Under the pieces are notes generated by a model, which saw nothing but the letters and a program-made list of their open reading frames with translations, did no database searches and was not told the DNA's origin. Positions 172-52,091 of a DNA stretch of 64,000 bases are shown piece after piece (position 1 is the stretch's first letter; the number at the start of each line of letters is the position of its first letter). The position numbers and the translations under genes were made by a program. The DNA is from Synergistaceae bacterium (GTDB taxonomy: Bacteria > Synergistota > Synergistia > Synergistales > Aminobacteriaceae): NCBI GenBank assembly GCA_017439345.1, contig JAFSJJ010000035.1, positions 1 to 64,000 of the forward strand, in the 5' to 3' direction.

Positions 172-211
172 TGATTTTTCTCTCCTGAATAAATAAAGAA
201 TGCACGGAGCA

Positions 212-1203: not shown

Positions 1204-1244
1204 TAAAAATTTTATATATTTATTTTAGTTAGGAGGTCTTTTTC

Positions 1245-1577: not shown

Positions 1578-1586
1578 AGAAAGGTT

Positions 1587-1946
1587 GTGAATTCCGTGAG
1601 AAAAGTTTTATTAGCTTTCTGTATCTCGTTATTAGTGTGTGTATCTGCTTTCGGTGCAAGTTTGAGTGAGATAAATGCTCTGGCTTCAGCAAAATTGTAT
1701 TTATCAACTCAGGCATTTTCATATAAGGGCTTAATAAATCAACTTGTATTTGAAGGGTATTCGCGTTCTGAAGCCGAATATGCGGTCAAAAATTGTGGTG
1801 CAGATTGGAACGAACAAGCTGCTATGAAAGCTAAAGAATATCTCGAAATAATGCCTATGTCGCGTACAAAATTAATCGAACAACTTGTATTTGAAGGCTT
1901 TACTAAGCAGCAGGCTTCATACGGGGTAAAACAGGCAGGTTATTAA
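1587..1946 (+). CDS. Ltp-family (host-cell-surface-exposed lipoprotein domain) secreted protein
   Basis: A signal peptide (hydrophobic residues about 7-24, ending SAFGA) is followed by two copies of a roughly 45-residue repeat: A-x-YL, then LINQLVFEGYSRSEAEYAVK and LIEQLVFEGFTKQQASYGVK. This repeat is typical of the Ltp family, whose founding member is the superinfection-exclusion lipoprotein of phage TP-J34. No lipobox cysteine is evident after the signal sequence, so it is probably periplasmic or secreted rather than lipidated. The start is GTG at 1587 or, giving a more typical MRKVLLAF signal, GTG at 1596. Its stop overlaps the next ATG (TAATG), so translation is probably coupled. Confidence 0.7.
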   Translation: MNSVRKVLLAFCISLLVCVSAFGASLSEINALASAKLYLSTQAFSYKGLINQLVFEGYSRSEAEYAVKNCGADWNEQAAMKAKEYLEIMPMSRTKLIEQLVFEGFTKQQASYGVKQAGY

Positions 1947-2668
1947 TGCGCAAGACATTCAAGCTGGGTAAAGGATTACGAATCACCCTGAGCAACAGCG
2001 GCCTGAGCATGAACATAGGCAAGCGCGGGAATTCAATCACTCTGGGAAATAAAGGGGTATATCGAAATGTCAGCCTGCCCGTTCTTGGATCGACACGCAG
2101 AAAAATTGACAAATCCGAGCCTTCTCATGATGTTTATGATGAAAACGATTATAGCGTAAATTCCGGTATTGCAGCTCCGATTACTCCTGATACTTCGGGA
2201 AGTTTTTCGCATATGGATTCTATCGCCCGTAAAATTGATGCTAAGAAAAAATCTGCTTCTGCTGTACCTGCTGCACCTGAAATCAAGACGGAAAACCGGC
2301 CTTCAGGTTTCTTGAAATTCCTGAAATACGTAGCCTGCTGTCCAATGTTATTTATTTCTCTAGTGTGTTTGCTCGGCGCAATAACTCAACCCAATAATAC
2401 CGGCAAAGAGTGGCTGTGTTTTCCTGCTGCATTTTTTATCGCGGGCTGTCTAGTCGCAAACACTGCAAAGCGCAAGGGGCTTCAAGGATCGGCAATCAAA
2501 TATTTTTTATACGGAGCGTTAATTCCTGTAGTCTCGTGGATTGACGTAACAATGATAAATGCTCAGAGTAAATTTAAAGGCTTCATGAAGGGGCTTGTAA
2601 TTTCGATTATCGGCGTTCTAATTTTCTTAGCCGTGTTTGTTCAGTTTATAGGCAAATTAAGCAAATAA
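1946..2668 (+). CDS. DUF4236-domain membrane protein
   Basis: The N-terminal ~55 residues (FKLGKGLRITLSNSGLSMNI, then GKRGNSITLGNKGVYRNVSL) match the pattern of DUF4236, a small beta-rich domain of unknown function. A low-complexity linker (about 60-115) leads to hydrophobic segments near residues 130-150, 158-175, 185-205 and 215-238. It therefore looks like an inner-membrane protein with a soluble N-terminal domain. It starts on the A of the preceding stop codon and is followed after 13 bases by the next start. Role unknown; membership of the small-envelope-protein operon is the main clue. Confidence 0.65.
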   Translation: MRKTFKLGKGLRITLSNSGLSMNIGKRGNSITLGNKGVYRNVSLPVLGSTRRKIDKSEPSHDVYDENDYSVNSGIAAPITPDTSGSFSHMDSIARKIDAKKKSASAVPAAPEIKTENRPSGFLKFLKYVACCPMLFISLVCLLGAITQPNNTGKEWLCFPAAFFIAGCLVANTAKRKGLQGSAIKYFLYGALIPVVSWIDVTMINAQSKFKGFMKGLVISIIGVLIFLAVFVQFIGKLSK

Positions 2669-2681
2669 GGAGGTGAAATCC

Positions 2682-2954
2682 ATGCGTAAGTTCTTCGCAA
2701 GCATTCTAATACTTTTTGCAGTAATAACCGCGCTCCCTCAGCCTGTAATGTCAGCTGGCAGTGATATAGTAGTCGTAACCCCTAAAGGCAAGAAATATCA
2801 CCGAATGGGCTGCCGGACAGTCAGAAAATCATACAGGCAATTAACAGTATCGCAGGCTCAAAAGAGGGGGTACAAGCCCTGCAAAGTGTGTGAGCCTCCG
2901 TTAAGTTCCATAACGAGTACGCCTAATGATAACTTTGAAGTGTACGGTAATTAA
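2682..2954 (+). CDS. Secreted Ada-like metal-binding domain protein
   Basis: A 90-residue protein with a signal peptide (about residues 1-25) followed by a compact domain with the pattern KKYHRMGCRTVRK ... AQKRGYKPCKVCEP. The Y-H-x3-C and GYxPCxxC spacing resembles Ada-like zinc-binding domains found at the ends of secreted nuclease-like proteins, but no enzymatic domain is attached here. The ATG at 2682 is preceded by AGGAGG with 8-base spacing; an in-frame GTG at 2673 lies inside the ribosome site and is not the start. Likely periplasmic or secreted and metal-binding; function unknown. Confidence 0.6.
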   Translation: MRKFFASILILFAVITALPQPVMSAGSDIVVVTPKGKKYHRMGCRTVRKSYRQLTVSQAQKRGYKPCKVCEPPLSSITSTPNDNFEVYGN

Positions 2955-2984
2955 AAAATTTTTAATAAAGAGGTGTTGTGTATC

Positions 2985-3224
2985 ATGAAGAAGCGCATAT
3001 TTTTAATTTTCTTGGCCTGCCTGTTAGCTTTCACGTCATTTAGTGCAGACGCTCACCCCGGACGGCTTGACGCAAACGGGGGACACTGGAATCACAAGAC
3101 AGGGACGTATCACTATCACAGAGGGCCGAATTCAGTCAGCAAGAAATCAACGAGTAGACGCAGACGCAGGACAGTCCGTAGACGCAGGGTAACACGCAGA
3201 CGCACACGGAGGACTCGCCGCTAA
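2985..3224 (+). CDS. YHYH-domain secreted protein with Arg-rich tail
   Basis: A 79-residue protein. A signal peptide (about 1-23, ending SADA) is followed by HPGRLDANGGHWNHKTGTYH and YHRGPN, the YHYH-type motif rich in histidine, glycine and aromatic residues. The last ~25 residues are almost all Arg, Ser and Thr (SRRRRRTVRRRRVTRRRTRR), giving a very basic tail that could bind nucleic acid, LPS or peptidoglycan. The start is ATG 2985 behind a GAGGTG ribosome site. It is the last gene of the accessory run. Confidence 0.65.
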   Translation: MKKRIFLIFLACLLAFTSFSADAHPGRLDANGGHWNHKTGTYHYHRGPNSVSKKSTSRRRRRTVRRRRVTRRRTRRTRR

Positions 3225-37006: not shown

Positions 37007-39076
37007 TTATGCACCTGCACTGACAGCTTCACGCTTCATGTATTGAACTGTGAAGACAAAGCCGACGAGCATTAAGCCTATCAGGTCGCTTACGATTCCA
37101 GGAACAAGCATACTCAATCCGCCAGCGCAGATTATGACTCTAAATAAAATATTCATCGGTCTGAACAAGTACCCGTTAAGAGCCGCAGCTACTCCGAAGA
37201 TTCCAAGCAATGCAGTAGCACAGATTAATATAATCTCAAGAATAATTAATATTTGAGTCAACACCGGCCCCGCTCCTGTGATATTTATAATCGGACTCAC
37301 GTTCTCGAACAACATTGCAGGAGTGAACGCGAATATATAAGGCACTATGAAAGCTCCTATTGCGAGTTTCGTAGCATTGAAAGCCGTCTTCATAGGAGGA
37401 GCCTTCGCTATTGCCGACCCCGCATAAGCAGCCAGAGCAACCGGAGGAGTTATATCCGCAACTATCCCGAAATAAAATACAAAGAAATGTGCGCAGATCT
37501 TCTCGATTCCGATTCCAGGAGCCATTAATATCGGCGCACACGTTGCCGCCATAATGCAATAATTTGCAGTCGTAGGGACTCCCATTCCAAGAATTATGCA
37601 GCAAATCATAGTTAATACTAACGCGATAAAGGCATGACCTCCAGAGACATTAACGACCATAGTTATTAACTCGCTAGCTAATCCTGTTGAAGTTATGCAC
37701 CCTGCTACAAGTCCTGCCATTGCACACGCTACAGCTACTGTTATAGTTCCTCGTCCTCCTGCTTCGAGAGCGTCAATAATTTTCTTGATAGTAATTCTCT
37801 CATCACTGTTAAAGAGTCCTACAAGAATAGCGATTCCGATAGCTATAGCTGCTGAGAACTGCATTGTATAAATATTCATTGAGACCATCACGACAAGAAT
37901 TATTAACGGCAATAATAAATAAATTTTGGGTAATAACTTTATTATTCTGGGTAATTCTTCTTTGGGAATGCCTTTAAGTCCGAGCTTCTTTGCTTCTAAG
38001 TGAACGGCGATATAAATTCCTGCGAAATACAACACAGCGGGCAATATAGCTTTTAACGCAACTTGAGAATACGGAATGCCCATATACTCAGCCATTAAGA
38101 AAGCTGCTGCTCCCATTATCGGCGGCATTATCTGACCTCCTGTTGATGCTGCTGCCTCGACTGCTCCGGCGAATTCAGGCTTGTAACCAGTTCTCTTCAT
38201 CATTGGAATAGTTACGCTTCCCGTTGTTACTGTGTTGCCTACTGATGACCCCGAGACCATCCCGCACAGAGCTGAAGATATAACAGCAACTTTTGCAGGA
38301 CCTCCAGCAGAAGCTCCGGCGATAGCGTTTGCAAGGTTAATAAAGAAAGTTGATATTCCCGTGCGCTCAAGGAATGCCCCGAAGATAATAAAAACGACTA
38401 TATATTTTGCACACACTTCAATGGGAGTGCTTCTCAGTCCGTCACCTGTAGAGTAATATAAATCGTAAATGACTTTGCCGAATCTCACCGTTGAGAACGC
38501 ATAAGCCATCAAGACACCGACTACGCATAAAATGGGAATGCCTACACACCGCCTGCAAAGTTCCATAGTTGATAATATCGCTATTACTGCCATTGAGATC
38601 ATGAAATAATAATTCGGATTTCTCGGACTCGTAACTCTCAATGCAAGTTTGATTATGCTCTCTGCGTTAATTGCAAAGTAAAAGAATGGAACTGCTCCGG
38701 CAAGCATGATTATGACATCGTAAACGGGAATTGCATTAACTCTCGGAGTCGTGTCAAGGGTCAGGGGAATCGAAATAGAGTCACCTAGTCCCGGCTTAAT
38801 CTCACCTGATGATTTCTTTATAGGGTAGTGAAGATAGCCGATTATTAATATTAATCCCAGAAAGACATTTAATCTCACTTCGGGCATTGCTGTACTGAAT
38901 AGCGTGACATAAATGCAATAGACAGAGAACAACGCCGACAGCCAGCGAATTACTACAGCCGGAGTCCCTTCCCAAACTCTGACGTTAGACTCACGATCAT
39001 ATTTTTTCATTACTGCGTCAACGTCTGCTTCGATTTGAGCAATATCTTGACTCGTTAAATTTTCGTTATCGCTCAT
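37007..39076 (-). CDS. TRAP transporter, fused 4TM/12TM permease
   Basis: Secondary transporter powered by an ion gradient. The 689-residue sequence fuses the small (DctQ-like) and large (DctM-like) membrane subunits. It has many hydrophobic segments, with conserved SGSSVGNTVTTGSVTIPMMK, GGQIMPPIMGAAAFLMAEYM and GMGVPTTANYCIMAATCAP. This fused type works with TAXI receptors, and the gene directly downstream of its receptor (39166-40125) fits. Substrates of TAXI systems include glutamate and C4-dicarboxylates, but most are unknown. Confidence 0.93.
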   Translation of the reverse strand: MSDNENLTSQDIAQIEADVDAVMKKYDRESNVRVWEGTPAVVIRWLSALFSVYCIYVTLFSTAMPEVRLNVFLGLILIIGYLHYPIKKSSGEIKPGLGDSISIPLTLDTTPRVNAIPVYDVIIMLAGAVPFFYFAINAESIIKLALRVTSPRNPNYYFMISMAVIAILSTMELCRRCVGIPILCVVGVLMAYAFSTVRFGKVIYDLYYSTGDGLRSTPIEVCAKYIVVFIIFGAFLERTGISTFFINLANAIAGASAGGPAKVAVISSALCGMVSGSSVGNTVTTGSVTIPMMKRTGYKPEFAGAVEAAASTGGQIMPPIMGAAAFLMAEYMGIPYSQVALKAILPAVLYFAGIYIAVHLEAKKLGLKGIPKEELPRIIKLLPKIYLLLPLIILVVMVSMNIYTMQFSAAIAIGIAILVGLFNSDERITIKKIIDALEAGGRGTITVAVACAMAGLVAGCITSTGLASELITMVVNVSGGHAFIALVLTMICCIILGMGVPTTANYCIMAATCAPILMAPGIGIEKICAHFFVFYFGIVADITPPVALAAYAGSAIAKAPPMKTAFNATKLAIGAFIVPYIFAFTPAMLFENVSPIINITGAGPVLTQILIILEIILICATALLGIFGVAAALNGYLFRPMNILFRVIICAGGLSMLVPGIVSDLIGLMLVGFVFTVQYMKREAVSAGA

Positions 39077-39106
39077 GAATAATATTACACCTCCTGATAA
39101 ATAAAA

Positions 39107-39132
39107 ACGGCCAAGTTGTGAAGCTCAGCCGT
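39107..39132 (-). terminator. Intra-operon hairpin with T-run between TAXI receptor and permease
   Basis: On the minus strand ACGGCTGAG pairs with CTTGGCCGT (9 bp, two G-U) around an 8-base loop and is followed by TTTTATTTATC. It sits between the receptor gene and the permease gene, so it would reduce permease mRNA relative to receptor mRNA. Confidence 0.55.
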
Positions 39133-39165
39133 CATTGATAAAATTCTTAGTGCTTCATGAAATAA

Positions 39166-40125
39166 TTACTTTCCTGTTACTTTGATACCCTTCTCAGCGA
39201 AATATTTTACTGCGCCTTTGTGATACGGTACTGCTGTATACGACGCTGCGAAATTGAGATTTAACTCTGCTCCCTTAGCATGTGCTGCTGTGATCTCCGG
39301 AAGGTTCTCGAACACTCCGTACATGAAGTTATACACGTCCGCTTCGCTGACATCATCATTTGCTATGACAACTGCACCGACTGCAACTGTAGTAGCTCCC
39401 TCATCAGTGCCGTAAACGTCTTTTGCTATAACGTTCTTGCTGTAGTAGGGCGATGCTGCTATTAACTTCATGATATGTTCGTCATCAAGACTCACGAGAT
39501 AAATTTTCTTAGTGGCTGCAAGTGAAGTAACTGCTGTAGTAGGAGCTCCTGCAACGATAAAAGCTGCGTCAATCTTTCCGTCCTGGAGGGCTTCAACTGA
39601 GTCGCCGAATGATTGATATGTGGGCTTAATGTCCCTCTCAATGTTGAGCCCGTAAGCGTCGAGAACGTCAACAGCATTGAAATATACTCCTGCACCTGCC
39701 GCGCCGACTGATACGTTTTTACCTTTCAAGTCTGCTACTGTCTTGATACTGGGATCAAGCGTTACGATTTGAACTTGTTCCATGTAGAGATTTGCTACGG
39801 TCGAGAAATTCCTGAACTTGTCATCAAAGAGTCTCGTTCCGTTGTAAGCATAGGCCGCAACGTCTGACTGAGCAAAGGCTATTTGAGCGTCACCGTCATC
39901 CATTGCTTCGATATTAGCTTTCGAGCCGCCTGAAGTGATAGCTGTTACAGTTGTGCTTGTCTTCTCGCCTACTTTACCGGCCAAGACTCCCCCGAGTCCG
40001 TAATATGTTCCCTGAGCTCCTCCTGTTGCGAATATGAGCTTCGTTCCTCCGGGCATACCGTCAGCAAATGCAGAGAACGCAAACGCTAACACAAGAACTA
40101 ATGCGAGTGAAAATATTTTCTTCAT
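39166..40125 (-). CDS. TAXI-family TRAP transporter solute receptor
   Basis: Periplasmic substrate receptor, 319 residues. A signal peptide (about 1-21, AFAFSAFADG) precedes a TAXI-type binding domain with LIFATGGAQGTYYGLGGVLA, VTAITSGGSKANIEAM and KGKNVSVGAAGAGVYFNAVD. It is the first gene of the receptor-permease operon, with an AGGAGGT ribosome site. Confidence 0.93.
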   Translation of the reverse strand: MKKIFSLALVLVLAFAFSAFADGMPGGTKLIFATGGAQGTYYGLGGVLAGKVGEKTSTTVTAITSGGSKANIEAMDDGDAQIAFAQSDVAAYAYNGTRLFDDKFRNFSTVANLYMEQVQIVTLDPSIKTVADLKGKNVSVGAAGAGVYFNAVDVLDAYGLNIERDIKPTYQSFGDSVEALQDGKIDAAFIVAGAPTTAVTSLAATKKIYLVSLDDEHIMKLIAASPYYSKNVIAKDVYGTDEGATTVAVGAVVIANDDVSEADVYNFMYGVFENLPEITAAHAKGAELNLNFAASYTAVPYHKGAVKYFAEKGIKVTGK

Positions 40126-40186
40126 GGCTAAGTCTTTACCTCCTGAAAAAATTTTTTGTTGGGTAAAAATATTTTATCATGATGAT

Positions 40187-42466
40187 TTATTTTTCTGACT
40201 CTGAGTCCTTCTTCTTTAGTTCGACAATTTTAGACTCGCCGGAGTCATTAATGATATGAATATCTCTTTGCGGATAGGGGATATTAATACCTTCACGCTT
40301 GAACACTGCCGCTATATGGTGCCTCATGTCGCTTGATACTTTGAGTCCTGACGACTTGCGCAGCTCTATCCAGTAATATATTTCAAATTCGAGTGCACTG
40401 TCTCCGAAATTCTTGAATATTACGAACGGTGCAGGATTTTTCAGAACGCTTGAATGTCCGTTCACTATGTCGAGTAATAATTTTTCTACCTGTCTTGTGT
40501 CTGCATCATAAGACACGCCCACTTTGAGAATTTCACGCTTCTTTAAGTCCGATTTAGTCCAGTTAGTAACGCTGTTCTCAAGAAAATATCTGTTTGGTAA
40601 TACAACATCGAAGCCGTCCCATGTCTTGATAGTCGTCGAACGCGAGCCTATATCTTCAACTACGCCTTGAACTCCTGCAACGTCAACAATGTCATTAACT
40701 TTGAAAGGACGAGAGAATATTACGATAAAGCCGCTGATTAAATTATTAAATATATTCTGCATTCCAAAGCCTAAGCCGACCGCAATAGCACCGCCCATGA
40801 AAGCAAAGGCCGTTAAGGGTATCTGAAGGATATTCAAAGCAATCAAAGCAAACGCTACCCATAAGATATAAAACGAAATTCTCTGGACTGCATTAGCTGC
40901 CGTAACACTTGATTTGACTCTTTTCAACATTCTGCGCTTGATCCAGTTGCTGCCCCATGAACTCAAGAAGAAGCTCGAGAGAAATACTAATATAGCAACC
41001 GTCAATTTCCAGACCGTAACTGAGTAGCCCTCGCCCTGCCAAAGTTCAGTGTTCAGAAATGCAAGCACAGTTTCTTTGCTGAATGAGCTTACTTTCTCGG
41101 CTATTCTTATTGCACTGAGATTATCATTTGCTTCGTTGTAGAGTCTCTGCTGTAAAAATATTGCCGCAGGTATAATTGACTCGTAGCGGTTCATGACTTC
41201 TGATATTATCTTGCGCCGGTTCTCGACTGTCTGAATGATTCCCTGCTGAATTATGCTTGATATTCCTTCAGTTTGTAATTTCTCCTGAGTCGACTCTATC
41301 TGCCTGAGTAAATCATTTTCACGGGTTCTGACTCCTTCGAGCTGCCTTTGAAGTTCCTGTAATCTAGTTTGAGCGTTGTTGCGTAATGCCCATATCTCAT
41401 CACCTGCTGCCTTGTCGTGAAAGAGCTTGTATCTATCCTTCCAAACCTGCTGAGCTTCCCGTGCAAGTTCTATCTCTTCATCAAGAAGTGCTGTCATCTG
41501 CTCCCAGTAATTTACTCGTGCAGAACGTGCCATGTACGTAGCTGAAGCGTTAGTCAATATACTTACGTCGCCTGAACCTAGAGTCGCCCGCGCCCTGATT
41601 AGTGAAAGATTCGCAGAGTCACGAGCCTTTCTCGCAGCATTCATCTCTTCGCTTAACTCGTTAATTCTTGCATGAAGCTTCTCTAAGTTAGAGTCAAGTA
41701 TCGCCTTAGGGAAAATTAATTTGTCCTGCATACCTTCGAGTCTTCGTCTCAGCCTCTGGATCTCCTTGACGTTCTTAACGAATGCCTGCCATAAGACACG
41801 AACTTGAAAACGTGAAAGAGCTACATTGACTCTCGCTGACTCTAATTCAAGAATATGCGTTTTAGGAATCTCGAGACCTTCTCCGCCTTCCTGAGCCTCT
41901 TTTAATTTCTTTTGCAGATCCACAGCTTGAGCCAGGTCTATTTTTAACTTACTGAGTCTTGACTGCAAATAAAACACTTGAACATCGAGTCCCCTTGAAA
42001 CTTTTGTGATTTCCTTTCTTAGTCCGTCACTCATGTTAATATCAGGCGAAGTAATAACTGCAAGGGAGTTTGCGTCAGGCTGCTCTTCGTCTCCGGCAGT
42101 ATTTGAAGCCCCGTGAAGCAGTGAACTATAAGCAGAGTATGCAACACTTAACTCGGATAAAATCTGCTCATGAAGCTCTCTTTGTTCAGGAGTGTAACCC
42201 CATGCTGTCATGTCGGCTGAAGCTGTACTCGTCATAATTGCAAGCTCATTGATTCGTGATTTAATATCACTAGGCTTTAACTTCATACCTTTTAATTCTG
42301 TGTCGATTGCCTGCCGTAAATTCGAAATATCTGCGCTGATCTCGTTGTGCATTCTGGTAACGTAATCATTAGCGAGGTCTTGATTGCCGTCTGCTCCGTA
42401 AGCTGTGAATGAAGCTGATAGAGTGAGAACAAGAAATAATAACGTGAATAAAAACTTTTTGTGCAA
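40187..42466 (-). CDS. Large MscS-family mechanosensitive channel
   Basis: A 759-residue protein. After a signal peptide (about 1-24) comes a long coiled-coil-rich periplasmic region (30-420), then membrane helices around 475-580 and the MscS core. The pore helix and beta domain are seen in AFMGGAIAVGLGFGMQNIFN, then SRPFKVNDIVDVAGVQGVVE and STTIKTWDGFDVVLPNRYFL. The layout resembles the large MscK/YbiO class, which releases solutes on hypo-osmotic shock. It is 61 bases upstream of the TAXI receptor on the same strand. Confidence 0.9.
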   Translation of the reverse strand: MHKKFLFTLLFLVLTLSASFTAYGADGNQDLANDYVTRMHNEISADISNLRQAIDTELKGMKLKPSDIKSRINELAIMTSTASADMTAWGYTPEQRELHEQILSELSVAYSAYSSLLHGASNTAGDEEQPDANSLAVITSPDINMSDGLRKEITKVSRGLDVQVFYLQSRLSKLKIDLAQAVDLQKKLKEAQEGGEGLEIPKTHILELESARVNVALSRFQVRVLWQAFVKNVKEIQRLRRRLEGMQDKLIFPKAILDSNLEKLHARINELSEEMNAARKARDSANLSLIRARATLGSGDVSILTNASATYMARSARVNYWEQMTALLDEEIELAREAQQVWKDRYKLFHDKAAGDEIWALRNNAQTRLQELQRQLEGVRTRENDLLRQIESTQEKLQTEGISSIIQQGIIQTVENRRKIISEVMNRYESIIPAAIFLQQRLYNEANDNLSAIRIAEKVSSFSKETVLAFLNTELWQGEGYSVTVWKLTVAILVFLSSFFLSSWGSNWIKRRMLKRVKSSVTAANAVQRISFYILWVAFALIALNILQIPLTAFAFMGGAIAVGLGFGMQNIFNNLISGFIVIFSRPFKVNDIVDVAGVQGVVEDIGSRSTTIKTWDGFDVVLPNRYFLENSVTNWTKSDLKKREILKVGVSYDADTRQVEKLLLDIVNGHSSVLKNPAPFVIFKNFGDSALEFEIYYWIELRKSSGLKVSSDMRHHIAAVFKREGINIPYPQRDIHIINDSGESKIVELKKKDSESEK

Positions 42467-42601
42467 CTGTAAAATTCCTCCTGAAAAAAAATAATTGCGA
42501 TAATAATAAAACTTTTCGCCCTAAAATGTTATATACTAATCTGCAATTTCCAAATTTTTTATAATTAATTTAATTTTTAAGAGGGAGGACACGCTCTTAT
42601 C

Positions 42602-44494
42602 ATGAGTAACTTTTTTAGCATGAAGAAACGTATATTTATCATCGTGTCAGTTATCGCAGTTGCAGGAATAATCTTCATCAATGCAAACGAGAACGCAGGC
42701 ACTTCGACAGGTACGGCCACAGCAGACGGCTTCGGAGGTCCGGGAGCTATCACAGTGAGCGTCAGTGTCAAGGACGGCAAAATTTCATCAGTCAATGCTC
42801 AAGGCCCAAAGGAAACAGTCGGAATCGGTTCAGTTGCAATCGAGAAACTTCCGGCTCAGATGGTCGAGAGAAATTCTATCAACGTCGACGTTATGACAGG
42901 AGCTACGATAAGTTCAACGGGAATATTAAAGGCTGCTGAAGGTGCATTAATCGCGGCCGGTCTCAATCCCGAAGACTTCAAGAAGGCTGCTGCAAAACGT
43001 GAAGCTGTCGAGAAGGAATTTAACACCGATATAGTCATAGTAGGTGCAGGAGGAGCAGGAATGGTTGCGGCTATAACTGCTGCTGATGCCGGGAAAAACG
43101 TTATCTTACTCGAGAAACAGGCAATGGTCGGGGGGAACTCTGCAAGAGCTACAGGAGGAATGAACGCAACTCACACAGCTAACCAGGACGCAAATAAATT
43201 CACAGAGAATGCAGGAGTAGAGAAGACCCTCAAGGCAGCCGAAAAATTTGCAGACAACGCACGAATCACAGAACTTGCTAATATAGTAAAAACTCAATGG
43301 GAAAATTACCAGAAAGATCCTAAAGGCTACTTTGACTCGATTGAACTAATGCAGCTTGATACACTCATCGGCGGTCATGGAATCAACAACCCTGAACTCG
43401 TGAAGACTTTTGCGGAGAACGCGGCAGGAGCTGTTGAATGGCTCAAGACTATTAATATTGATTTGTCATCAGTCGGAGCTTTCGGAGGTGCTTCAGTCAA
43501 ACGAATTCACAGACCGTTAAACGAAGAGAAAAAAGTTGTCTCTGTCGGAGCTTACATGATTCCCAGACTTGAGGCAGCGTGCAGGGAACGCAGTAATATT
43601 ACTATCATGATTCAGACTACGGCGGACTCTATTTTGACAGACGAGAAAGGAGCAGCTTCGGGAATCATTGCTTACTCAGCAGAGGGCGACAAGATTACTA
43701 TTCATGCAAAGGCAGTAATTCTCGCGGCAGGAGGCTTCGGGGCAAATCTCAAGATGGTAGCGTTACTCAAACCCGAACTTGACGGCTTCATGACTACCAA
43801 CGCAGCAGGTATCACAGGAGAAGGCATAGTTATGGGTCAGGAACTCGGGGCAGCAGTCGTTGACATGGCACAAATTCAAATTCACCCTACAGTTCAGGCA
43901 GACACGGCAGCGTTAATAACAGAAGGACTCAGGGGCGACGGAGCTATTCTCGTTAATAAAGAAGGCAGACGCTTTATCGATGAGACAGGGACCCGCGATG
44001 TTGTCTCAGCAGCAGAGATTGCCCAGCCTGGTTCGTTCTCATGGCTCATAGTAGACCAGAAGATGGCAGATGCTTCGAGCGTCATTAAAGGCTATATTTC
44101 ACGAGGCTACACGTTACAGGGCGACACTTACGAGGCTTTGGCAAAAGTTATTGACGTTCCTGAATCAGAATTTGCCAAGACCCTTAATGACTGGAACAAA
44201 TACGTTACTGAACGCAAAGACCCTGACTTTAACCGCACAAGTTTTGCTAATCCGTTAGATAAAGCTCCGTTCTATGCAATCAAAGTTACAGCAGGAATTC
44301 ATCACACGATGGGAGGCTTGAAGATTGACTCTCAGGCAAGAGTCCTTAAAGGCAACGGCGATGCTATACCGGGACTTTTCGCGGCTGGAGAGATCACAGG
44401 AGGCATTCACGGAGGCAACAGACTCGGAGGGAACGCAGTAGCAGATTTCGTTATATTCGGCAGGATTGCAGGACAGAGCGCGGCAAGTTTCTAG
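42602..44494 (+). CDS. FMN-binding fumarate reductase-like flavoprotein
   Basis: A 630-residue flavoenzyme of the fumarate/urocanate reductase family. A membrane-anchoring N-terminal helix (about 8-28) is followed by an FMN_bind domain with DVMTGATISSTG, where the threonine in TGAT would carry covalent FMN. The FAD-binding reductase domain begins DIVIVGAGGAGMVAAITAAD and ends GNRLGGNAVADFVIFGRIAG. Such proteins reduce a small enoate as terminal electron acceptor at the outside of the inner membrane. No ApbE flavin transferase is in the window. Start ATG 42602; the GGGAGG is 13 bases upstream. Confidence 0.9.
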   Translation: MSNFFSMKKRIFIIVSVIAVAGIIFINANENAGTSTGTATADGFGGPGAITVSVSVKDGKISSVNAQGPKETVGIGSVAIEKLPAQMVERNSINVDVMTGATISSTGILKAAEGALIAAGLNPEDFKKAAAKREAVEKEFNTDIVIVGAGGAGMVAAITAADAGKNVILLEKQAMVGGNSARATGGMNATHTANQDANKFTENAGVEKTLKAAEKFADNARITELANIVKTQWENYQKDPKGYFDSIELMQLDTLIGGHGINNPELVKTFAENAAGAVEWLKTINIDLSSVGAFGGASVKRIHRPLNEEKKVVSVGAYMIPRLEAACRERSNITIMIQTTADSILTDEKGAASGIIAYSAEGDKITIHAKAVILAAGGFGANLKMVALLKPELDGFMTTNAAGITGEGIVMGQELGAAVVDMAQIQIHPTVQADTAALITEGLRGDGAILVNKEGRRFIDETGTRDVVSAAEIAQPGSFSWLIVDQKMADASSVIKGYISRGYTLQGDTYEALAKVIDVPESEFAKTLNDWNKYVTERKDPDFNRTSFANPLDKAPFYAIKVTAGIHHTMGGLKIDSQARVLKGNGDAIPGLFAAGEITGGIHGGNRLGGNAVADFVIFGRIAGQSAASF

Positions 44495-44587
44495 TTCGCA
44501 AGTTAATATATTCCGGGCTTCTTGTTTATTCGAGAGGCTCGGAAATCTTTATTTATTTATTTCTATAAAGGAACGGTGATTTTTATT

Positions 44588-45555
44588 ATGAGTCTGCTTC
44601 AACAAGTCATCATGAAATACGAGCATGAAGGGTTCATGTGTCTCTTTGCTGCTGTGTTAAGGAAAGCTGCCGGAAAAATTTTTCACATTACAGAAAGATT
44701 TGAACGTATGCAGAAACATAAACGTATAATGCGCTATCTTCGTGAAAATTACGGTTATGTCATAAGTAAATTTACCCCCCCCAATCTAAGCCGAAACACG
44801 TATCTGAATTCAAGGGCGTAATCTGGTCTATGTGGTGGCAGGGCGAGGCAAATTGTCCTGATGTCATTAAATTATGTTTGGCAAGCATTAGGAAACACTG
44901 CGGCTCACACAGGCTTATCGTGATAACGAAAGATAATTATCAAGACTATATAACTCTTCCTCAACACATTATCTCAAAAGTAAAATTAAATAATATAACA
45001 CTAACACATCTATCAGATATAATCAGAGTTAATTTACTTGCAAAATACGGCGGGCTGTGGATGGATTCTACTCTTTTCGCTGCAGGTGATATACCTGAAG
45101 AAATTTTCTCGATGGAACTTTACACGATTAAGCGTGTTAGCAAGCCTAATTATAGTAACAGCGTCATTTCATGGTCAAGATGGACAAGTTATTGTCTTTC
45201 AGCACCAGACAGCAACAGTCTCTTATTTGCTTTCATGTCTGAATTATTTTCTGAATACTGGAAAACACATGATACATTAATTGATTATCTTCTTGTTGAT
45301 TATGTAATAGCAATAGCTTTCGAGGAGTTCTCGGAAATTTATCAGGCATGGAACAAAATCCCGGTAAATAATACATGTTGCTGGGCATTATCGCACGGTG
45401 GGTTCCTAAAAGAAGAATGGGACTCGGAAAAGTATTCAAGGCTCATAGCGAATAACACATTTTTCAAGCTGACTTACAAAGATAATTTCACTCGTGAGAC
45501 CAGCTTAGGCAAAGAGACAACTTACGGGCATTTATTGTCAGAATATAATATTTAA
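44588..45555 (+). pseudogene. GT32-like capsular glycosyltransferase, out of frame at a C8 tract
   Basis: A sugar transferase of the capsular polysaccharide synthesis family. The catalytic part has SMWWQGEANCPDVIKLCLAS, the LSDIIRVNLLAKYGGLWMDS motif (DxD-like) and a complete C-terminus. ATG 44588 begins MSLLQQVIMKYEHEGFMCLF, and the frame stops at 44821. A run of eight C at 44775-44782 marks the break. With nine (or six) Cs the frame reads on through SKPKHVSEFKGVIWSMWWQG and joins the catalytic part exactly. So the gene is OFF here, by phase variation, mutation or a homopolymer error. Confidence 0.8.
44775..44782 (+). repeat. Poly-C tract (C8), candidate phase-variation switch
   Basis: Eight consecutive Cs inside the N-terminal third of the glycosyltransferase. 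Adding one base restores one continuous frame. Slipped-strand mispairing at such tracts commonly switches surface-sugar genes on and off in bacteria. Confidence 0.6.
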
Positions 45556-45574
45556 CGAAAAAATATCATTTCAG

Positions 45575-45609
45575 AGAGTTCCTGATTCATTCTGGGACTC
45601 TTTTTTTTG
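45575..45609 (+). terminator. Rho-independent terminator after the glycosyltransferase
   Basis: AGAGTTCC and GGGACTCT arms (one G-U pair) enclose an 11-base loop and are followed by TTTTTTTT. Confidence 0.8.
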
Positions 45610-45638
45610 TCTTCACACGAAAAGTTTTTATAAACATG

Positions 45639-45644
45639 TATAAT
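45639..45644 (+). promoter_or_regulatory. Candidate -10 of feoAB
   Basis: TATAAT directly preceded by TG. A TTCACA lies 21 bases upstream (45612-45617), too far for a standard -35. The position puts transcription start near 45651, upstream of the preferred feoAB start (45689). Confidence 0.4.
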
Positions 45645-45688
45645 TGCATGAAAATCTTTCTTTCAAAGTGAGGCATACAAAACTCAAC

Positions 45689-48052
45689 ATGAACGACTCA
45701 TTAACTTTAAACGAGCTACAAATCAATCACAGCGCAGAAATTCTCAAGGTCGGAGGCAGCGGAAGACTTAGGCAGCACTTACTCGACATGGGAATCATTC
45801 CGGGTGCAGTCGTAAAGATGATAAGGCTTGCACCTATGGGAGACCCTTTAGAGATCCGCATTCATGATTATGAATTGACTCTCAGGGAACATGACGCTCA
45901 ACGAATCACTATTAAGCCTGTGGACACTCAGGACTCTAACGAGGCCAAGGCCCAATCAGGACGCAAAAATATTATCAACATTGCACACCCTGGACTCGGC
46001 GAAGAAGGCAAATATCACGTCAAAGGCGAGAGCGAGCCGTTACCGGATGGAACGATATTAACATTTGCATTGGCAGGGAATCAGAACTCAGGCAAGACGA
46101 CTCTATTCAATCAATTAACAGGAGCAAATCGCAGAGTCGGAAACTTTCCGGGCGTTACTGTTGACAGGAAGGACGGAGTCATTAAAGGCCATAACGACAC
46201 GTTAATTACTGACTTGCCGGGAATTTACTCAATGTCCCCCTACAGCGGTGAAGAGATCGTATCGCGCAACTTTATTCTCAACGAGAAGCCCAAAGCTATT
46301 ATTAACATAATCGATGCTACGAATATAGAACGCAATTTGTATTTAACAGTTCAGTTAATGGAAATGCAGATTCCTATGGTCGCAGCCCTTAACATGATGG
46401 ACGAACTCAGGGGCAACGGAGGCACTATCGATATTAACATGATGGAGTCCATGCTTGGGATTCCTGTTATTCCTATTTCGGCATTAAAGAATGAAGGTGT
46501 TAATGAACTCGTTAATCACGCTGTTCATATTGCACGTTATCAGGAGAAACCGGCACGCTATGATTTCTGCGACGAGAACGATCACAACGGAGCAGTTCAC
46601 AGGGCTCTTCACGCAATCACTCACTTAATCAAAGACCATGCAGAACGCGCAGGACTGCCGCTGAGATTCGCAGCAAGTAAAGTTATCGAGAACGATAAAT
46701 TAATCATCGAGCAGCTTAATCTTGAACCTAATGAACTCGAAATGCTCGAACATATTATTGTCCAAATGGAAAATGAACGAGGCCTTGACCGTAATGCAGC
46801 AATGGCTGATATGAGATTCAATTTTATTCACAAAGTCTGCGAACGTTCCGTAGTTAAGCCCAAACAGAGCCGCGAACATGTTAGAAGCCAAATCATAGAC
46901 AACATATTAACGGGCAAGTATACAGCTATCCCTGTGTTTATTGCTGTAATGTGCGCTATATTCTTCCTGACATTTAATGTCATCGGCGCATACTTTCAGG
47001 AATTATTAGAGTCGGGCATTGACTCTCTGACTCAATACGTAGACTCGTTAATGACATCAGCGGGAGTTAATGAAGTCATTCACGGCTTTATAATCGACGG
47101 CATTTTTGCAGGAGTCGGGAGCGTCTTGTCATTCCTGCCGATAATCATAACGTTATTTTTCTTTCTGTCTATTCTCGAGGACTCTGGCTACACTGCAAGA
47201 GTTGCATTCTTTATGGATAAGATTTTGCGCAAATTAGGACTCTCGGGCCGGAGCATTGTCCCAATGTTAATAGGCTTTGGGTGTACTGTCCCTGCTGTAA
47301 TGTCGACTCGAACTCTGCCCAGTGAACGCGACAGACGAATGACGATATTATTGACTCCCTTCATGAGCTGTACTGCTAAGCTGCCGATTTATGCATTTTT
47401 CGTTAATGCATTTTTCCCGGACTACTCAGGCTTAATAATGTCAGGTTTATATCTGCTGGGAATTGATGTAGCTGTCCTTGTAGCTTTATTATACAAAGAA
47501 ACTCTCTTCAGGGGAGAAGCTGTGCCGTTCGTAATGGAGCTGCCCAATTACAGAATGCCTGCGCCGCGTAACGTGTTAATGCTTATGTGGGAGAAGGCAA
47601 AGGATTTTATTTACAGGGCGTTTTCAGTTATCTTAATCGCAACTATAGTTATATGGTTCCTGCAAAGTTTTGATTTACATTTTAATCTTGCGTCGAGTCA
47701 GGATGAGAGCATCCTTGCATATATTTCAAGTCTGTTAGTTCCGTTGATGCGTCCTGCTGCTCTTGGAGACTGGAAGATATGCACGGCGTTAATCAGCGGC
47801 TTCATGGCAAAAGAAAGCGTTGTATCGACTCTGAATATTTTATTCGGTGAAAATGTAAGTGCTGCTATGTCGAGCGTATCTGCTGCTTCACTCTTAGTGT
47901 TTAGTTTATTATATACTCCTTGTGTTGCTGCTGTTGCATCGATAAAGCGCGAACTAGGGAGCTTGTGGGCACTGGGAGTCGTCATCTGGCAGTGCGTCAT
48001 AGCGTGGCTGTTTGCTGTACTCACGAAAATAATTATGTTAATGGTGATATAA
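45689..48052 (+). CDS. feoB: Ferrous iron transporter, FeoA-FeoB fusion
   Basis: GTP-driven Fe2+ importer. A FeoA SH3-like domain occupies about residues 1-80 (LNELQINHSAEILKV to EHDAQRITI). FeoB follows: G1 GNQNSGKTT, G3 DLPG, G4 NMMD, then a long helical region and about eight to ten membrane segments with gate motifs FGCTVPAVMSTRTLPSERDR and LLYTPCVAAVASIKREL. ATG 45689 gives MNDSLTLNEL; the upstream ATG 45644 overlaps the -10 element. The GTGAGG ribosome site is unusually far (about 15 bases). Confidence 0.93.
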   Translation: MNDSLTLNELQINHSAEILKVGGSGRLRQHLLDMGIIPGAVVKMIRLAPMGDPLEIRIHDYELTLREHDAQRITIKPVDTQDSNEAKAQSGRKNIINIAHPGLGEEGKYHVKGESEPLPDGTILTFALAGNQNSGKTTLFNQLTGANRRVGNFPGVTVDRKDGVIKGHNDTLITDLPGIYSMSPYSGEEIVSRNFILNEKPKAIINIIDATNIERNLYLTVQLMEMQIPMVAALNMMDELRGNGGTIDINMMESMLGIPVIPISALKNEGVNELVNHAVHIARYQEKPARYDFCDENDHNGAVHRALHAITHLIKDHAERAGLPLRFAASKVIENDKLIIEQLNLEPNELEMLEHIIVQMENERGLDRNAAMADMRFNFIHKVCERSVVKPKQSREHVRSQIIDNILTGKYTAIPVFIAVMCAIFFLTFNVIGAYFQELLESGIDSLTQYVDSLMTSAGVNEVIHGFIIDGIFAGVGSVLSFLPIIITLFFFLSILEDSGYTARVAFFMDKILRKLGLSGRSIVPMLIGFGCTVPAVMSTRTLPSERDRRMTILLTPFMSCTAKLPIYAFFVNAFFPDYSGLIMSGLYLLGIDVAVLVALLYKETLFRGEAVPFVMELPNYRMPAPRNVLMLMWEKAKDFIYRAFSVILIATIVIWFLQSFDLHFNLASSQDESILAYISSLLVPLMRPAALGDWKICTALISGFMAKESVVSTLNILFGENVSAAMSSVSAASLLVFSLLYTPCVAAVASIKRELGSLWALGVVIWQCVIAWLFAVLTKIIMLMVI

Positions 48053-48064
48053 TAAATTCATTCT

Positions 48065-48121
48065 TCACGAAAACTTTTCACGTTAATTAATTCATGAATT
48101 ACTAATACATTTACTAATACA
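48065..48121 (-). repeat. Dispersed intergenic repeat, copy 2
   Basis: On the minus strand, TGTATTAGTAAATGTATTAG then TAATTC, a short insertion and CGTGAAAAGTTTTCGTGAA. The same modules in the same order occur at 29107-29148. It lies in the 203-base gap between feoB and the Mrp gene. Confidence 0.5.
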
Positions 48122-48255
48122 GAAATCATTAATAAGCACGCTAGCTCAAAGTCTTAACGTTCGTAAAAGATTTATTATCGAGTCAAGATTGAGTCAGCGT
48201 GTAAAATATATTAATCAACTTACAACTTAACGAAGGGAGTAAATCTTAAATAACA

Positions 48256-49071
48256 ATGCCGGAATGTAATCACAACTGCGGGTCATGCAGCGCAAATTGT
48301 TCAGAAAGAAAATCTGCTCCGGAAAAGTTTCATGCTAATCCTAACAGCGTAATCAAAAACGTAATCGGAGTCGTCAGCGGCAAAGGAGGAGTCGGCAAGT
48401 CATTAGTAACAGGGCTTCTTGCTTCGTCAATGAGAGCTAGGGGCTTCACGTCTTCGATTCTTGATGCAGATATAACAGGGCCTTCGATCCCTAAGATGTT
48501 CGGACTTCATGAGCAACTTCTATCAGATGGACATAACATAATGCCTGCGATAACTAAGAGCGGTATTAAAGTCATCTCGATGAATTTATGTCTTCAGGAC
48601 GAGACTCAGCCGGTAGTGTGGCGTGGTCCTGTCTTGGCCGGAGTCTTGCAGCAGTTCTGGGAAGAGGTCGACTGGGGCTATACTGATTATATGTTTATCG
48701 ATATGCCTCCTGGAACTGGAGACGTGCCTCTAACAGTGTTTCAGTCACTGCCTGTGAAGGGTATCATAGTCGTTGCTACACCTCAAGAGCTCGTCAGCAT
48801 GATAGTGAATAAAGCCTTGAACATGGCTCAGATAATGAATGTTCCTGTTCTTGGCCTTGTTGAAAATATGGCGTACTTTGAGTGTCCTGACTGCGGAAAG
48901 AAGCATTATATATTTGGTGAAAGCAATTTAGAGTCTCTAGCTTCTGAGTCAGGGATAAAAGCTATTGCAGAGCTGCCGATTATGCCGGAACTTGCGAAAT
49001 TATGCGATAAAGGCGAAATAGAGAGCTTCGATGCAGGCAGATATTTAGATAACATCATTAACGCTCTGTAA
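48256..49071 (+). CDS. Mrp/NBP35-type P-loop ATPase (Fe-S carrier)
   Basis: A scaffold/carrier ATPase for iron-sulfur clusters. The 271-residue protein has an N-terminal cysteine cluster (CNHNCGSCSANC, residues 4-15) like eukaryal NBP35, the deviant Walker A VSGKGGVGKSLVTGLLASSM, Walker B FIDMPPGTGDVPLTVFQS and the bridging CxxC (FECPDCGKKH). The GGGAG lies about 16 bases before the ATG; an in-frame TAA immediately upstream rules out a longer start. Confidence 0.92.
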   Translation: MPECNHNCGSCSANCSERKSAPEKFHANPNSVIKNVIGVVSGKGGVGKSLVTGLLASSMRARGFTSSILDADITGPSIPKMFGLHEQLLSDGHNIMPAITKSGIKVISMNLCLQDETQPVVWRGPVLAGVLQQFWEEVDWGYTDYMFIDMPPGTGDVPLTVFQSLPVKGIIVVATPQELVSMIVNKALNMAQIMNVPVLGLVENMAYFECPDCGKKHYIFGESNLESLASESGIKAIAELPIMPELAKLCDKGEIESFDAGRYLDNIINAL

Positions 49072-49086
49072 ATTATTAATGTCCTG

Positions 49087-49665
49087 TCAATGAGTGCAAG
49101 AACTCACCGGCAGGATTTTATTTATAATACGCTTAACACGCCGTGCTATTCTGCGAAGTAAACCCGCTTTATTATTAACAGGATTAACGCATATTTTTTC
49201 ACCGTTGAAGTATGCAAGATAAAATATTTTTTCCCAGTCATAATTATTTATTCGGGACGCTCTGCCTATTTCGACTAAATCCTTCTGGTCTTTGGGTTCA
49301 AGTCTGCGTAACTTCTTTGCAATCTCAAGCTCAAACTTTGCTATTCTGATACCGTTATAATCTTCTGAGTAATTATCATCATCGCTGAAGAGATCATAAT
49401 CTTTAATGCCTATAACACCGTATCTTTCACGGCATACTTGAATATTTTCGGATAAATTGATTAACTGTAAGGTCGAGTTCACATTTAAATCACTATGAGA
49501 TTTTATTAATGCTTCTCTTGCAGAAGGTCTCAGAGTTATATCAATGTCGTTGTTATTCCTGAAACCTGCTCTTGCGATTACGCTGCTGCCGATAATGCAC
49601 ACATCGTTATGATTTATGCCGTATAATTCAAGCGTCCTGTAGAATTCTTGTTCGTGTTGAATCAT
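49087..49665 (-). CDS. Nucleotidyltransferase-fold protein
   Basis: A 192-residue protein with VCIIGSSVIARAGFRNNNDI then DIT, the G-S/A-x-(9)-D-x-D pattern of a minimal nucleotidyltransferase (polymerase beta) fold, followed by helical sequence. The C-terminus is basic (RRIARRVKRIINKILP). The start overlaps a short SD region 2 bases after the stop of the upstream gene (49668-50879), so the two form an operon. The substrate is unknown; it could transfer a nucleotide to a sugar, lipid or protein. Confidence 0.6.
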   Translation of the reverse strand: MIQHEQEFYRTLELYGINHNDVCIIGSSVIARAGFRNNNDIDITLRPSAREALIKSHSDLNVNSTLQLINLSENIQVCRERYGVIGIKDYDLFSDDDNYSEDYNGIRIAKFELEIAKKLRRLEPKDQKDLVEIGRASRINNYDWEKIFYLAYFNGEKICVNPVNNKAGLLRRIARRVKRIINKILPVSSCTH

Positions 49666-49667
49666 GA

Positions 49668-50879
49668 TTATTTAATGCCTCCTGATATTAATTTTATTAA
49701 TCTGCGTTTAATTCTTCTAGTTAAATTATAAATTTTCCGTGCAGGATTAATAACATGTCTCAAGCAGTAACTCATTTCGGACAGAGGCCCTTGACCGTAC
49801 CTGCAGCGTTGTATCTGGTAATCAAGACGTTCTTGAACACGTGAAGGCCTGTATCGTTTGGGCAGAGTCTTCTCGAGCGATGAGTCAGGAAGATTATAAT
49901 TCCGGCCGTAAATGTAATTTTGAGTAAAATTAATAACATGCAGGTTTTCAGGGTCATAAAGAATTCTGCACATCATTTCAGTTTCTGCCTGGCCGTCAGA
50001 GATATGCACAGAACTTTTTTCTATGTTGTAGAGATCGCGTATTCTCTGCTTGCATTCTAATACGAGTTCACTTGAATGCGCCTGAAATAAAAACGTCCTG
50101 ACCGGATAATTTTTATCGAAACATGCGCGGGCTTTCCCTGCTGCTCCTGCGAAATTGTTTGCTTCAGTGCCTACCCAAGAGTCATGAGAATATATATTTG
50201 CCATGAAGTTTTTGATTCCATTGAACGTTAAATAAATATCTTGAGAGTATAAAATATTTCCTGCCTTGAGTAATATATCCTGAACTTTGTCAGCGAGTCT
50301 TAACCCCGTTCGAGGCCACAGACAAGCCATGTACAAATTATCTTTGACGCTGGTGTATGAACTTGCCATGAAGCCCATGTTTATATCGCTCATTAGACGC
50401 TGCCTGAAAAAATTATAATCCCATTGTCTCCGCATTCCAGGAAAATAAATCACAGTAACATTTTTATCATAATAAGCCGCTGCCGCCGTCCTGTGAGAAC
50501 CGTCAAGAATTATATTATCTTCGCCGACTGGTACAAGCGAAATATTCTCATTGAAGCCGTTAATCTTTATGTCATCGATTAATAAATTGAAGTCGTCTAA
50601 ATATTTGCTGAATGAATTTTTTGACTCTGTGCCTGGTTCTGTGAATGTTCCGAGTGAGAAGGCGTTTATGTTGTCCATGTAGATTTTCACGGCGCGTTCA
50701 AGATTTAAATTTTTCTCTCGTGCATCGATATAAATCCATTTTGCCATTATGTCGAAGCGTTCTGGTGTTAATAAATCTCTTGCAGGAATTGAATATATTT
50801 GATAAGGTTTATTTGTATTAATGTGGTTTGCGTTAATGAAGTATTCTGTTAGAAGTGCATAAGGAAACGCTATCCGCAT
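49668..50879 (-). CDS. Unrecognised protein with ParB-like DGSHR motif
   Basis: A 403-residue protein not assigned to a family. The N-terminal 40% contains LVPVGEDNIILDGSHRTAAA, matching the D-G-x-H-R motif of ParB/sulfiredoxin-like domains, preceded by a segment (YQIYSIPARDLL) like a ParB strand. The middle has FNGIKNFMANIYSHDSWVGT and SSELVLECKQRIRDL, and the end is very basic (KIYNLTRRIKRRLIKLISGG). A consensus promoter overlaps the ATG 50879 (see 50878-50907), so the start is uncertain; the next in-frame Met is about residue 45. Operon with the nucleotidyltransferase; near surface-sugar genes. Confidence 0.6.
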   Translation of the reverse strand: MRIAFPYALLTEYFINANHINTNKPYQIYSIPARDLLTPERFDIMAKWIYIDAREKNLNLERAVKIYMDNINAFSLGTFTEPGTESKNSFSKYLDDFNLLIDDIKINGFNENISLVPVGEDNIILDGSHRTAAAAYYDKNVTVIYFPGMRRQWDYNFFRQRLMSDINMGFMASSYTSVKDNLYMACLWPRTGLRLADKVQDILLKAGNILYSQDIYLTFNGIKNFMANIYSHDSWVGTEANNFAGAAGKARACFDKNYPVRTFLFQAHSSELVLECKQRIRDLYNIEKSSVHISDGQAETEMMCRILYDPENLHVINFTQNYIYGRNYNLPDSSLEKTLPKRYRPSRVQERLDYQIQRCRYGQGPLSEMSYCLRHVINPARKIYNLTRRIKRRLIKLISGGIK

Positions 50880-50907
50880 TATAGCGGGATTGCTGTAATG
50901 TTGTCAA
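50878..50907 (-). promoter_or_regulatory. Consensus sigma-70 promoter overlapping the apparent start codon
   Basis: TTGACA (50902-50907), an 18-base spacer and TATAAT (50878-50883), both hexamers perfect. The ATG of the 403-residue gene shares bases with the -10, so transcription would begin inside the frame. Confidence 0.6.
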
Positions 50908-51044
50908 GTCTTTTATCCTTCTTTCATGAGAAATTAATTTTATATATTCTATCAGACTGTTCAAATTTATGTTTATGACTCTGAGTCTGAGTCCTGCAAG
51001 TTGATATAATTATCTAAAACTTTAATGGAGTCAAAGTATGAAAA

Positions 51045-52091
51045 ATGTCTCGTAAAGCAAAGGCAATATTTTACGCGTTAATTGCTGCAGTGTTCTATGC
51101 TGTCAACGTCCCTTTATCAAAGCTGCTTATGAACAACATAGCTCCAACGTTCATGGCGGCCTTGTTATATCTGGGTGCAGGTCTCGGAATGGCTTTAACT
51201 GCTCTGTTGAAATCACGTTCTGAACTGGGAAAATCTCCGCTTGATAGACGCGATATGCCTTTCGTTATCGATATGATAGTCCTTGACATTGCAGCACCTG
51301 TATTCTTGATGACCGGTATAAATATCGGTACGTCGTCGAACGCTTCACTATTAGGAAATTTTGAAATCGTAGCTACGGCATTGATAGCTGTCCTCGTCTT
51401 CAAAGAGTCAGTGTCCCGAAGATTATGGCTTGCTCTTGCTCTTATAACTCTTGCAGGGGTAATTCTTTCGTTTGATTTTAACGATCCTGACTCTCTGAAA
51501 TTTTCATACGGTTCATTATTCGTTCTTCTTGCTGCATCGTGCTGGGGACTTGAGAATAACTGTACCAGAATGATAGCTTCAAAGAATACGTTTGAGATAG
51601 TAATTCTGAAGGGTATATTTTCCGGTGCAGGTTCGTTAGTGATTGCCTTATCTTTAGGCGAGAGAGTCCCGGCTCTTCGTTATATAGTGAGTGCTATGCT
51701 TCTTGGCTTCATTGCTTACGGGTTGAGTATATTCTTTTACGTCAAGGCTCAAAACGTCATAGGAGCTTCTCAGACAAGCGCGTATTATGCTGCCTCGCCG
51801 TTTATAGGTTCGTTATTATCATTCGTGATTCTTAACGAGGAACTTTCAAGCACGTATATTATTGCGTTATTCATAATGTCCTCAGGAGCGTTGCTTACTG
51901 TGATAGATACTTTAATCTTGAGTCATAATCACGAACATACTCACGTTATTACTTATACTTACAGGGGCATAAAGCATACTCACACGATAACGCATTCACA
52001 TTTACATAGTCATTATTCTGATGAAACAAGACACAATCACATTCACAAGGGCAGGCATATTATTAAGACAGGAGCAAATATAAAGTTATGA
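51045..52091 (+). CDS. DMT/EamA-family transporter with His-rich C-terminal tail
   Basis: A 348-residue protein with ten hydrophobic segments in two EamA repeats (for example AVFYAVNVPLSKLLMNNIAP and AASCWGLENNCTRMIASKNT). The last ~55 residues are cytoplasmic or periplasmic and dense in histidine (HNHEHTHVITYTY, HTHTITHSHLHSHYSDETRH, NHIHKGRH), which suggests metal binding or sensing. The good GGAG (51027-51030) is 8 bases from another ATG (51038) that encodes only MKNVS and overlaps this start, so initiation may be coupled. TATAAT at 51005-51010 is a possible -10. Confidence 0.85.
   Translation: MSRKAKAIFYALIAAVFYAVNVPLSKLLMNNIAPTFMAALLYLGAGLGMALTALLKSRSELGKSPLDRRDMPFVIDMIVLDIAAPVFLMTGINIGTSSNASLLGNFEIVATALIAVLVFKESVSRRLWLALALITLAGVILSFDFNDPDSLKFSYGSLFVLLAASCWGLENNCTRMIASKNTFEIVILKGIFSGAGSLVIALSLGERVPALRYIVSAMLLGFIAYGLSIFFYVKAQNVIGASQTSAYYAASPFIGSLLSFVILNEELSSTYIIALFIMSSGALLTVIDTLILSHNHEHTHVITYTYRGIKHTHTITHSHLHSHYSDETRHNHIHKGRHIIKTGANIKL

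Follow-up and report, generated by a model that had tools for sequence, protein, structure and literature searches.

The window (the whole stretch of 64,000 nucleotides that was analysed, from a Synergistaceae bacterium) contains what is, judging from its sequence, a single glycosyltransferase gene that is split between two reading frames by a tract of eight Cs (Table 1). We consider it likely, with a probability of about 0.8, that this gene is a contingency locus, in which slippage at the C tract flips a surface-sugar glycosyltransferase from cell to cell and of which the assembly captured the OFF state. Slippage at the tract during replication would shift the reading frame of the glycosyltransferase, such that some cells of a population would make the transferase and others would not. 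The support for such a locus is good but indirect. The sequences show the tract class to which the C8 belongs, a split but otherwise intact gene, nearly random frame states of similar tracts, the classes of genes that carry them, and the association with a dyad, whereas the slippage, its reversibility, its effect on the cell surface, and a factor that binds the dyad are our inferences.

A count on the window sequence confirmed that the tract consists of exactly eight Cs, as an earlier note on this DNA had claimed. In a Pfam profile search, the part downstream of the tract matched Caps_synth (PF05704) with an E value of 7.7e-71 and 239.1 bits (curated cut-off, 24.5); the match covered profile positions 38 to 277 of 278, and the domain part was open over 259 residues. 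The same part also matched the sugar-binding family PF04488, albeit barely above the gathering score (23.6 versus 23 bits). The upstream part alone had no match in a Pfam search at an E value of 0.1, and in a single comparison it was identical at 13 of 32 residues to the N-terminal stretch of a Synergistaceae homologue from goat rumen (E = 7e-7). Since the upstream part matches the N terminus of this homologue and the downstream part is a Caps_synth domain, one gene spans both parts, which bears out the earlier proposal of two halves of one GT32-like transferase. The tract was also said to lie early in the gene, and it does so, at about one fifth of its length. Given that the tract sits inside an otherwise intact gene, changes of one unit in its length shift the frame, as translational contingency requires. 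Among the matches listed, none of the homologues of the IWxxWWQG type has a tract at the corresponding place, which implies that the switch in this gene is young or private.

Table 1. Features at the split glycosyltransferase gene (positions in the window)
Feature	Position	Strand	Remarks
C8 tract	44775..44782	+	On the coding strand, at about codon 63; the two gene parts are out of frame in the assembly
Upstream frame	44588..44821	+	Glycosyltransferase N-terminal part plus short out-of-frame tail; from ATG through the tract to a stop
Downstream frame	44776..45555	+	Caps_synth (PF05704) domain, also PF04488; past the tract, no stop until 45555
Dyad GTAAATTTACTTA (TAAGTAAATTTAC on the + strand)	44763..44775	-	Last C is the first C of the tract; exact-pattern match
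Weak second dyad-like stretch GCCGAAACACGTA	44790..44802	+	At the usual distance 3' of the C run

The label "capsular" for the transferase fared less well, since its basis is the Pfam family name only and the neighbours do not look like a capsule cluster. The ORFs next to the split gene look like those of a FeoB-like transporter of ferrous iron and an FAD-binding oxidoreductase, and no capsule genes adjoining the glycosyltransferase were recognised among the ORFs at 38000 to 52000. The gene resembles known Caps_synth or GT32-like glycosyltransferases in that PF05704 and PF04488 both score above their gathering scores and differs from them in standing isolated among unrelated ORFs, outside any capsule cluster.

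A single C8 is unremarkable, with 0.14 expected per window and occurrences in 14 of 100 shuffled windows. The genome to which the window belongs (G000; 2.54 Mb in 46 contigs) contains, counting C runs on either strand, 153 C6, 10 C7, and 4 C8 runs and then 49 runs of C9 or longer, which span C9 to C15. If the fifteen-fold fall in number between C6 and C7 continued, almost no runs of C9 or longer would be expected. The C8 of the window belongs to this strongly non-random, genome-wide class of tracts, whose numbers are far beyond chance, and is the shortest length and slow end of it. In Table 1 of PMC4235727, tracts of 6 to 8 Gs are given as mutable and those of >7 Gs as hypermutable; by these published rates, a C8 would stand at the border of the two classes. 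C8+ tracts numbered between 2 and 53 in the 25 genus genomes compared, with the maximum in the window's own genome. A simple ORF picker (rather than a gene finder) placed some of these 53 tracts within ORFs, some at ORF starts, and some between ORFs.

The genome is rich in such tracts in surface genes, as the 49 tracts of C9 or longer and the Pfam matches at tract genes indicate; this genome-wide set and the dyad were out of view for the earlier note. Many of the tracts are in genes for sugar decoration and the cell surface or in the promoters of such genes. The Pfam scan covered 42 of the 53 tracts, with the split gene of the window, 41 further gene parts, and then ten more. Matches included glycosyltransferases (Glycos_transf_1, Glycos_transf_2, Glyco_transf_6, Glyco_transf_10, Caps_synth, and Gly_transf_sug), LicD, FkbM- and TylF-type methyltransferases, SIS, PEP mutase, an amino-acid permease, mannitol dehydrogenase, flagellin, a pilin-like protein, LRR, and large repeat-rich secreted proteins; some of the matches (L025 and L039) were below the curated cut-off. 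The gene parts at L026, L034, L041, and L045 had no Pfam match at an E value of 0.001. Weaker Caps_synth matches were obtained for two further tract genes (L006 and L046), and another Caps_synth gene of the same genome (L021) has a C9/G9 tract directly before its IWRLWLQG stretch.

Frame states were counted for the in-gene tracts of five genus genomes, an open frame of ≥180 nt being required on each of the two sides. Among the clear cases, 25 of 71 (35%) were in frame, and a looser filter gave 27 of 77 in frame and 50 of 77 out of frame. For the window's own genome, the corresponding in-frame counts were 4 of 18 (clear) and 4 of 20 (looser). The in-frame share is about one third, as random sampling of frames predicts and unlike that of fixed functional genes.

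While in-gene tracts would switch translation, tracts between -35 and -10 boxes would switch transcription. We looked for TTGA[CT] in the 11 nt that precede the C run, allowing the tract's own first C to contribute to the word. It was present at 17 of the 44 tracts that are followed by a gene start on the C strand, at 3 of 107 tracts associated with G-strand genes (within them, at their starts, or between them), and at 3 of 23 in the remaining groups (23 of 174 overall). At in-gene G-coding tracts, the -35-like word was rare (3 of 74), and all three instances borrowed the tract's own C. Of the 17 C-oriented cases, 13 had a spacing of 19 to 22 nt to the best TATAAT-like word and the other four had spacings of 8, 11, 16, and 18 nt, the -10 word having been chosen by script. 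The optimal promoter spacing is given as 17/18 nt (PMC4235727). Most promoter-class tracts would be predicted to be weak or off at their assembled lengths. Phase variation through the promoter spacer is known as the porA type. The tracts described here resemble it in that the C run lies between TTGACA-like and TATAAT-like words; they differ in that the spacing is mostly 19 to 22 nt.

A dyad close to TMRGTARWWTTACKKA recurs 3' of C runs, in coding and non-coding DNA alike, and is about equally strong at in-gene and intergenic tracts. Its half-site, TRCKBA, was found 11 nt beyond the tract end at 21 of 174 tracts and 14 nt beyond it at 20, against a background of ~0.45 per position, and in the training data 118 of 174 tracts scored >6 for the dyad. 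The model used for cross-validation had a core seeded with GTAAATTTAC, in a register chosen after the motif had been seen. When trained on the four other genomes, this model placed 27 of 53 own-genome tracts above the 99% level of the null, either side being allowed (chance, ~1). When trained on the window's own genome, it did so for 72 of 121 tracts of the other four genomes (chance, ~2), a set without 7 C9+ places of G017, tracts with <34 nt of sequence 3', and duplicates, and with a few C8 tracts included. About half of the tracts were below the threshold in this cross-validation. Of the control C4 to C6 runs of the window and the own-genome loci, 13 and 12 of 596 were above the threshold for the two training sets, respectively. 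A model in a register shifted by three bases yielded 24 of 53 and 64 of 121 tracts, and it did not detect the left dyad at the C8 of the window (score, -1.4).

The distance between tract and dyad is species-specific. At scores of ≥6.1, the mean spacer was 6.7 nt in G000 (40 tracts), 6.3 nt in G010 (16 tracts), and 6.2 nt in G047 (12 tracts), and it was 4.4 nt in G022 (22 tracts) and 3.4 nt in G017 (23 tracts). Among 74 G-coding in-gene tracts, the dyad was on the right in 43, on the left in 3, on both sides in 6, and on neither in 22; for the 15 C-coding in-gene tracts, it was on the right in 8, on the left in 3, and on neither in 4. The C8 of the window is one of the left-side cases, with the dyad abutting the tract. 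This dyad scored 11.0 in the model from the four other genomes, a value reached by 0.00022 of null positions. The second, weaker stretch on the right of the tract scored 6.7 (reached by ~1% of null positions) and, when cross-validated, 5.3, which is under the threshold of 7.5.

Several accounts of the dyad were considered and rejected. A tie to transcription does not fit, as the dyad is mostly 3' of the C run irrespective of gene orientation, nor does a role as a promoter box only, as it is about as strong at in-gene tracts, where -35-like words are rare. A hairpin was rejected in that 10 pairings at 118 sites gave no significant excess of complementary pairs over shuffles and so no covariation between the arms. 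As for a general operator of the genome, the exact pattern GTANNNTTACKNA occurred 34 times versus 29 times for the reversed control, such that the pattern is not clearly enriched away from tracts. When the 34 sites were inspected by eye, 13 adjoined tracts of C8 or longer, one a C7 (L278, position 1957), and one a broken C run (L275, position 2002), and one was ~25 nt from a C6 (L280, position ~2000); these short or interrupted C runs near a dyad are possibly decayed or young switches.

The dyad is most likely the binding site of a dimeric DNA-binding protein, which would affect the origin, upkeep, or mutation of the tracts. A more specific proposal, which we put forward tentatively and regard as somewhat unlikely, is directed hypermutation, whereby the dimeric protein, bound to TMRGTARWWTTACKKA, makes the C tract at a set distance expand and contract. 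Chance dyads in surface genes and promoters would then become switches, and the species-specific spacings (~7, 6, 6, 4, and 3 nt) would result from divergence of the dimeric protein.

Across the genus, the strict pattern C9-N2-9-GTANNNTTAC was present in 21 of 43 genomes and absent from 22; its reversed control matched only in G051, one of the 21, where it exceeded the real pattern. The strict pattern is absent from G009, G013, and G014, although these genomes carry 23, 17, and 26 C8+ tracts, respectively, so this dyad is not a prerequisite for tracts. None of four genomes from other genera had the strict pattern, and 0 of 21 scored C8+ tracts from other genera reached the dyad threshold, 22 more having been inspected by eye. 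The C8+ tracts of other genera were embedded in DNA of 55 to 73% G+C.

At least 12 of the 176 tracts of C9 or longer in five genus genomes sit within 100 nt of a contig end, a count that is a lower bound given that the far ends are missing for six G017 tracts; the chance expectation, estimated by hand from contig numbers, is ~0.8. A mixture of tract lengths in the population would break an assembly at such places and could thus account for contig ends at tracts, and poor sequencing of poly-C may be an alternative cause. All of the contig-end tracts were in G010, G017, G022, and G047 (for example, on contigs C18, C20, and C25 of G010), and in the window's own genome 0 of 49 tracts of C9 or longer were near a contig end. 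Loss of MutS does not explain the tracts, since a search for MutS was positive in all 25 of the genus genomes covered (one of them with just a fragment, at the end of a contig) and in 37 of 41 genomes overall.

Since the gene is out of frame and its C8 is short, it could instead be a pseudogene, in which one indel in the C tract inactivated the gene with no switching back; the lack of a tract here in the listed IWxxWWQG-type homologues also fits, and a single frameshift could mark a dying gene. We nevertheless consider this unlikely, given that the domain is otherwise open over 259 residues, that about one third of the in-gene tract class is in frame (25 of 71), and that the dyad is present at the tract. 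Homopolymers are error-prone in some sequencing technologies, and the genome is a draft in 46 contigs, both of which would favour an assembly or base-calling error in a gene that is always in frame. This explanation is highly improbable, however, as 50 of the 77 tracts that are flanked by open frames in the five genomes are out of frame and as the dyad sets the tracts apart from C4 to C6 runs, which a sequencing error would not do.

Homopolymers can also be slippery, and a one-base shift would suffice for some full-length protein to arise from the out-of-frame copy, either by programmed frameshifting or by slippage during transcription of the C run. The nearly random frame state across genes argues against both mechanisms, and some tracts are in promoter-like places, out of reach of ribosomal slippage, such that we regard this reading as quite unlikely. 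There is a similarly slim chance that tract and dyad together are a small mobile or copied element that was inserted into genes. The same composite, with its species-specific spacer, recurs between genes and in genes that are unrelated to one another, and hand counts gave ~5 (L013) and ~8 (L028) extra residues relative to the Pfam profiles, which is more than the tract accounts for. In contrast, the profile runs almost without gaps across the tract elsewhere (GT2, 77 to 81 in L035; GT4, 78 to 81 in L001), and Caps_synth homologues that have a tract and those that lack one have similarly long linkers ahead of IWxxWxQG (hand count). The balance leans towards a tract that grew where it is and away from an inserted element of 30 bp.

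Read as a contingency locus, the gene has parallels in the homopolymer loci of Helicobacter, Campylobacter, and Neisseria, which likewise have poly-G/C tracts in surface genes and promoters. It differs from them in phylum (Synergistaceae) and in that many of the tracts here have a dyad at a set distance. Homopolymer switching of the surface is known mainly from mucosal pathogens. In Helicobacter canadensis, 29 tract-associated coding regions have been described, with 5 promoter and 16 translational candidates, and the words "motif" and "flanking" have no occurrence in the paper's text (PMC2823697). In the titles and abstracts of the open-licence literature, no report of homopolymer switching in Synergistetes or Synergistota was found among the matches listed, nor was a report of such a dyad at homopolymer contingency tracts; what is new here is the dyad beside the C tracts. 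Putative DNA inversions, whose mechanism differs from homopolymer switching, have been reported for one of two Synergistetes species (PMC5903667), as have 218 frame-transition genes in two Synergistetes genomes (PMC3711429). The bacterium belongs to a genus found in ruminant guts, and ~50 switches in uncultured gut Synergistaceae suggest that commensals use homopolymer switching as heavily as mucosal pathogens do. The dyad, provided that it is functional, would open a long-standing question to testing, namely whether slippage at contingency tracts is passive or whether a dedicated factor makes and tunes these tracts.

Three tract loci of the same genome carry further features. At L047 (G000:C45:23200-29300), a secreted-looking open frame of 754 residues (positions 778-3039, minus strand) with a C9 at its very start encodes a ubiquitin domain (PF00240; E = 2.5e-30) followed by Listeria-Bacteroides repeats and LRRs. 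The ubiquitin domain is nearly identical to the eukaryotic one (63 of 69 positions in the alignment, hand count); BfUbb of Bacteroides fragilis has 63% identity to human ubiquitin (PMC3352274). L018 (G000:C16) contains a flagellin gene (positions 1562-3010, plus strand) with a G9 tract upstream of its start, and L010 (G000:C8) contains a secreted-looking frame (positions 1-1503, minus strand) with an aerolysin-type profile match (E = 3e-7) and a C11 near its start.
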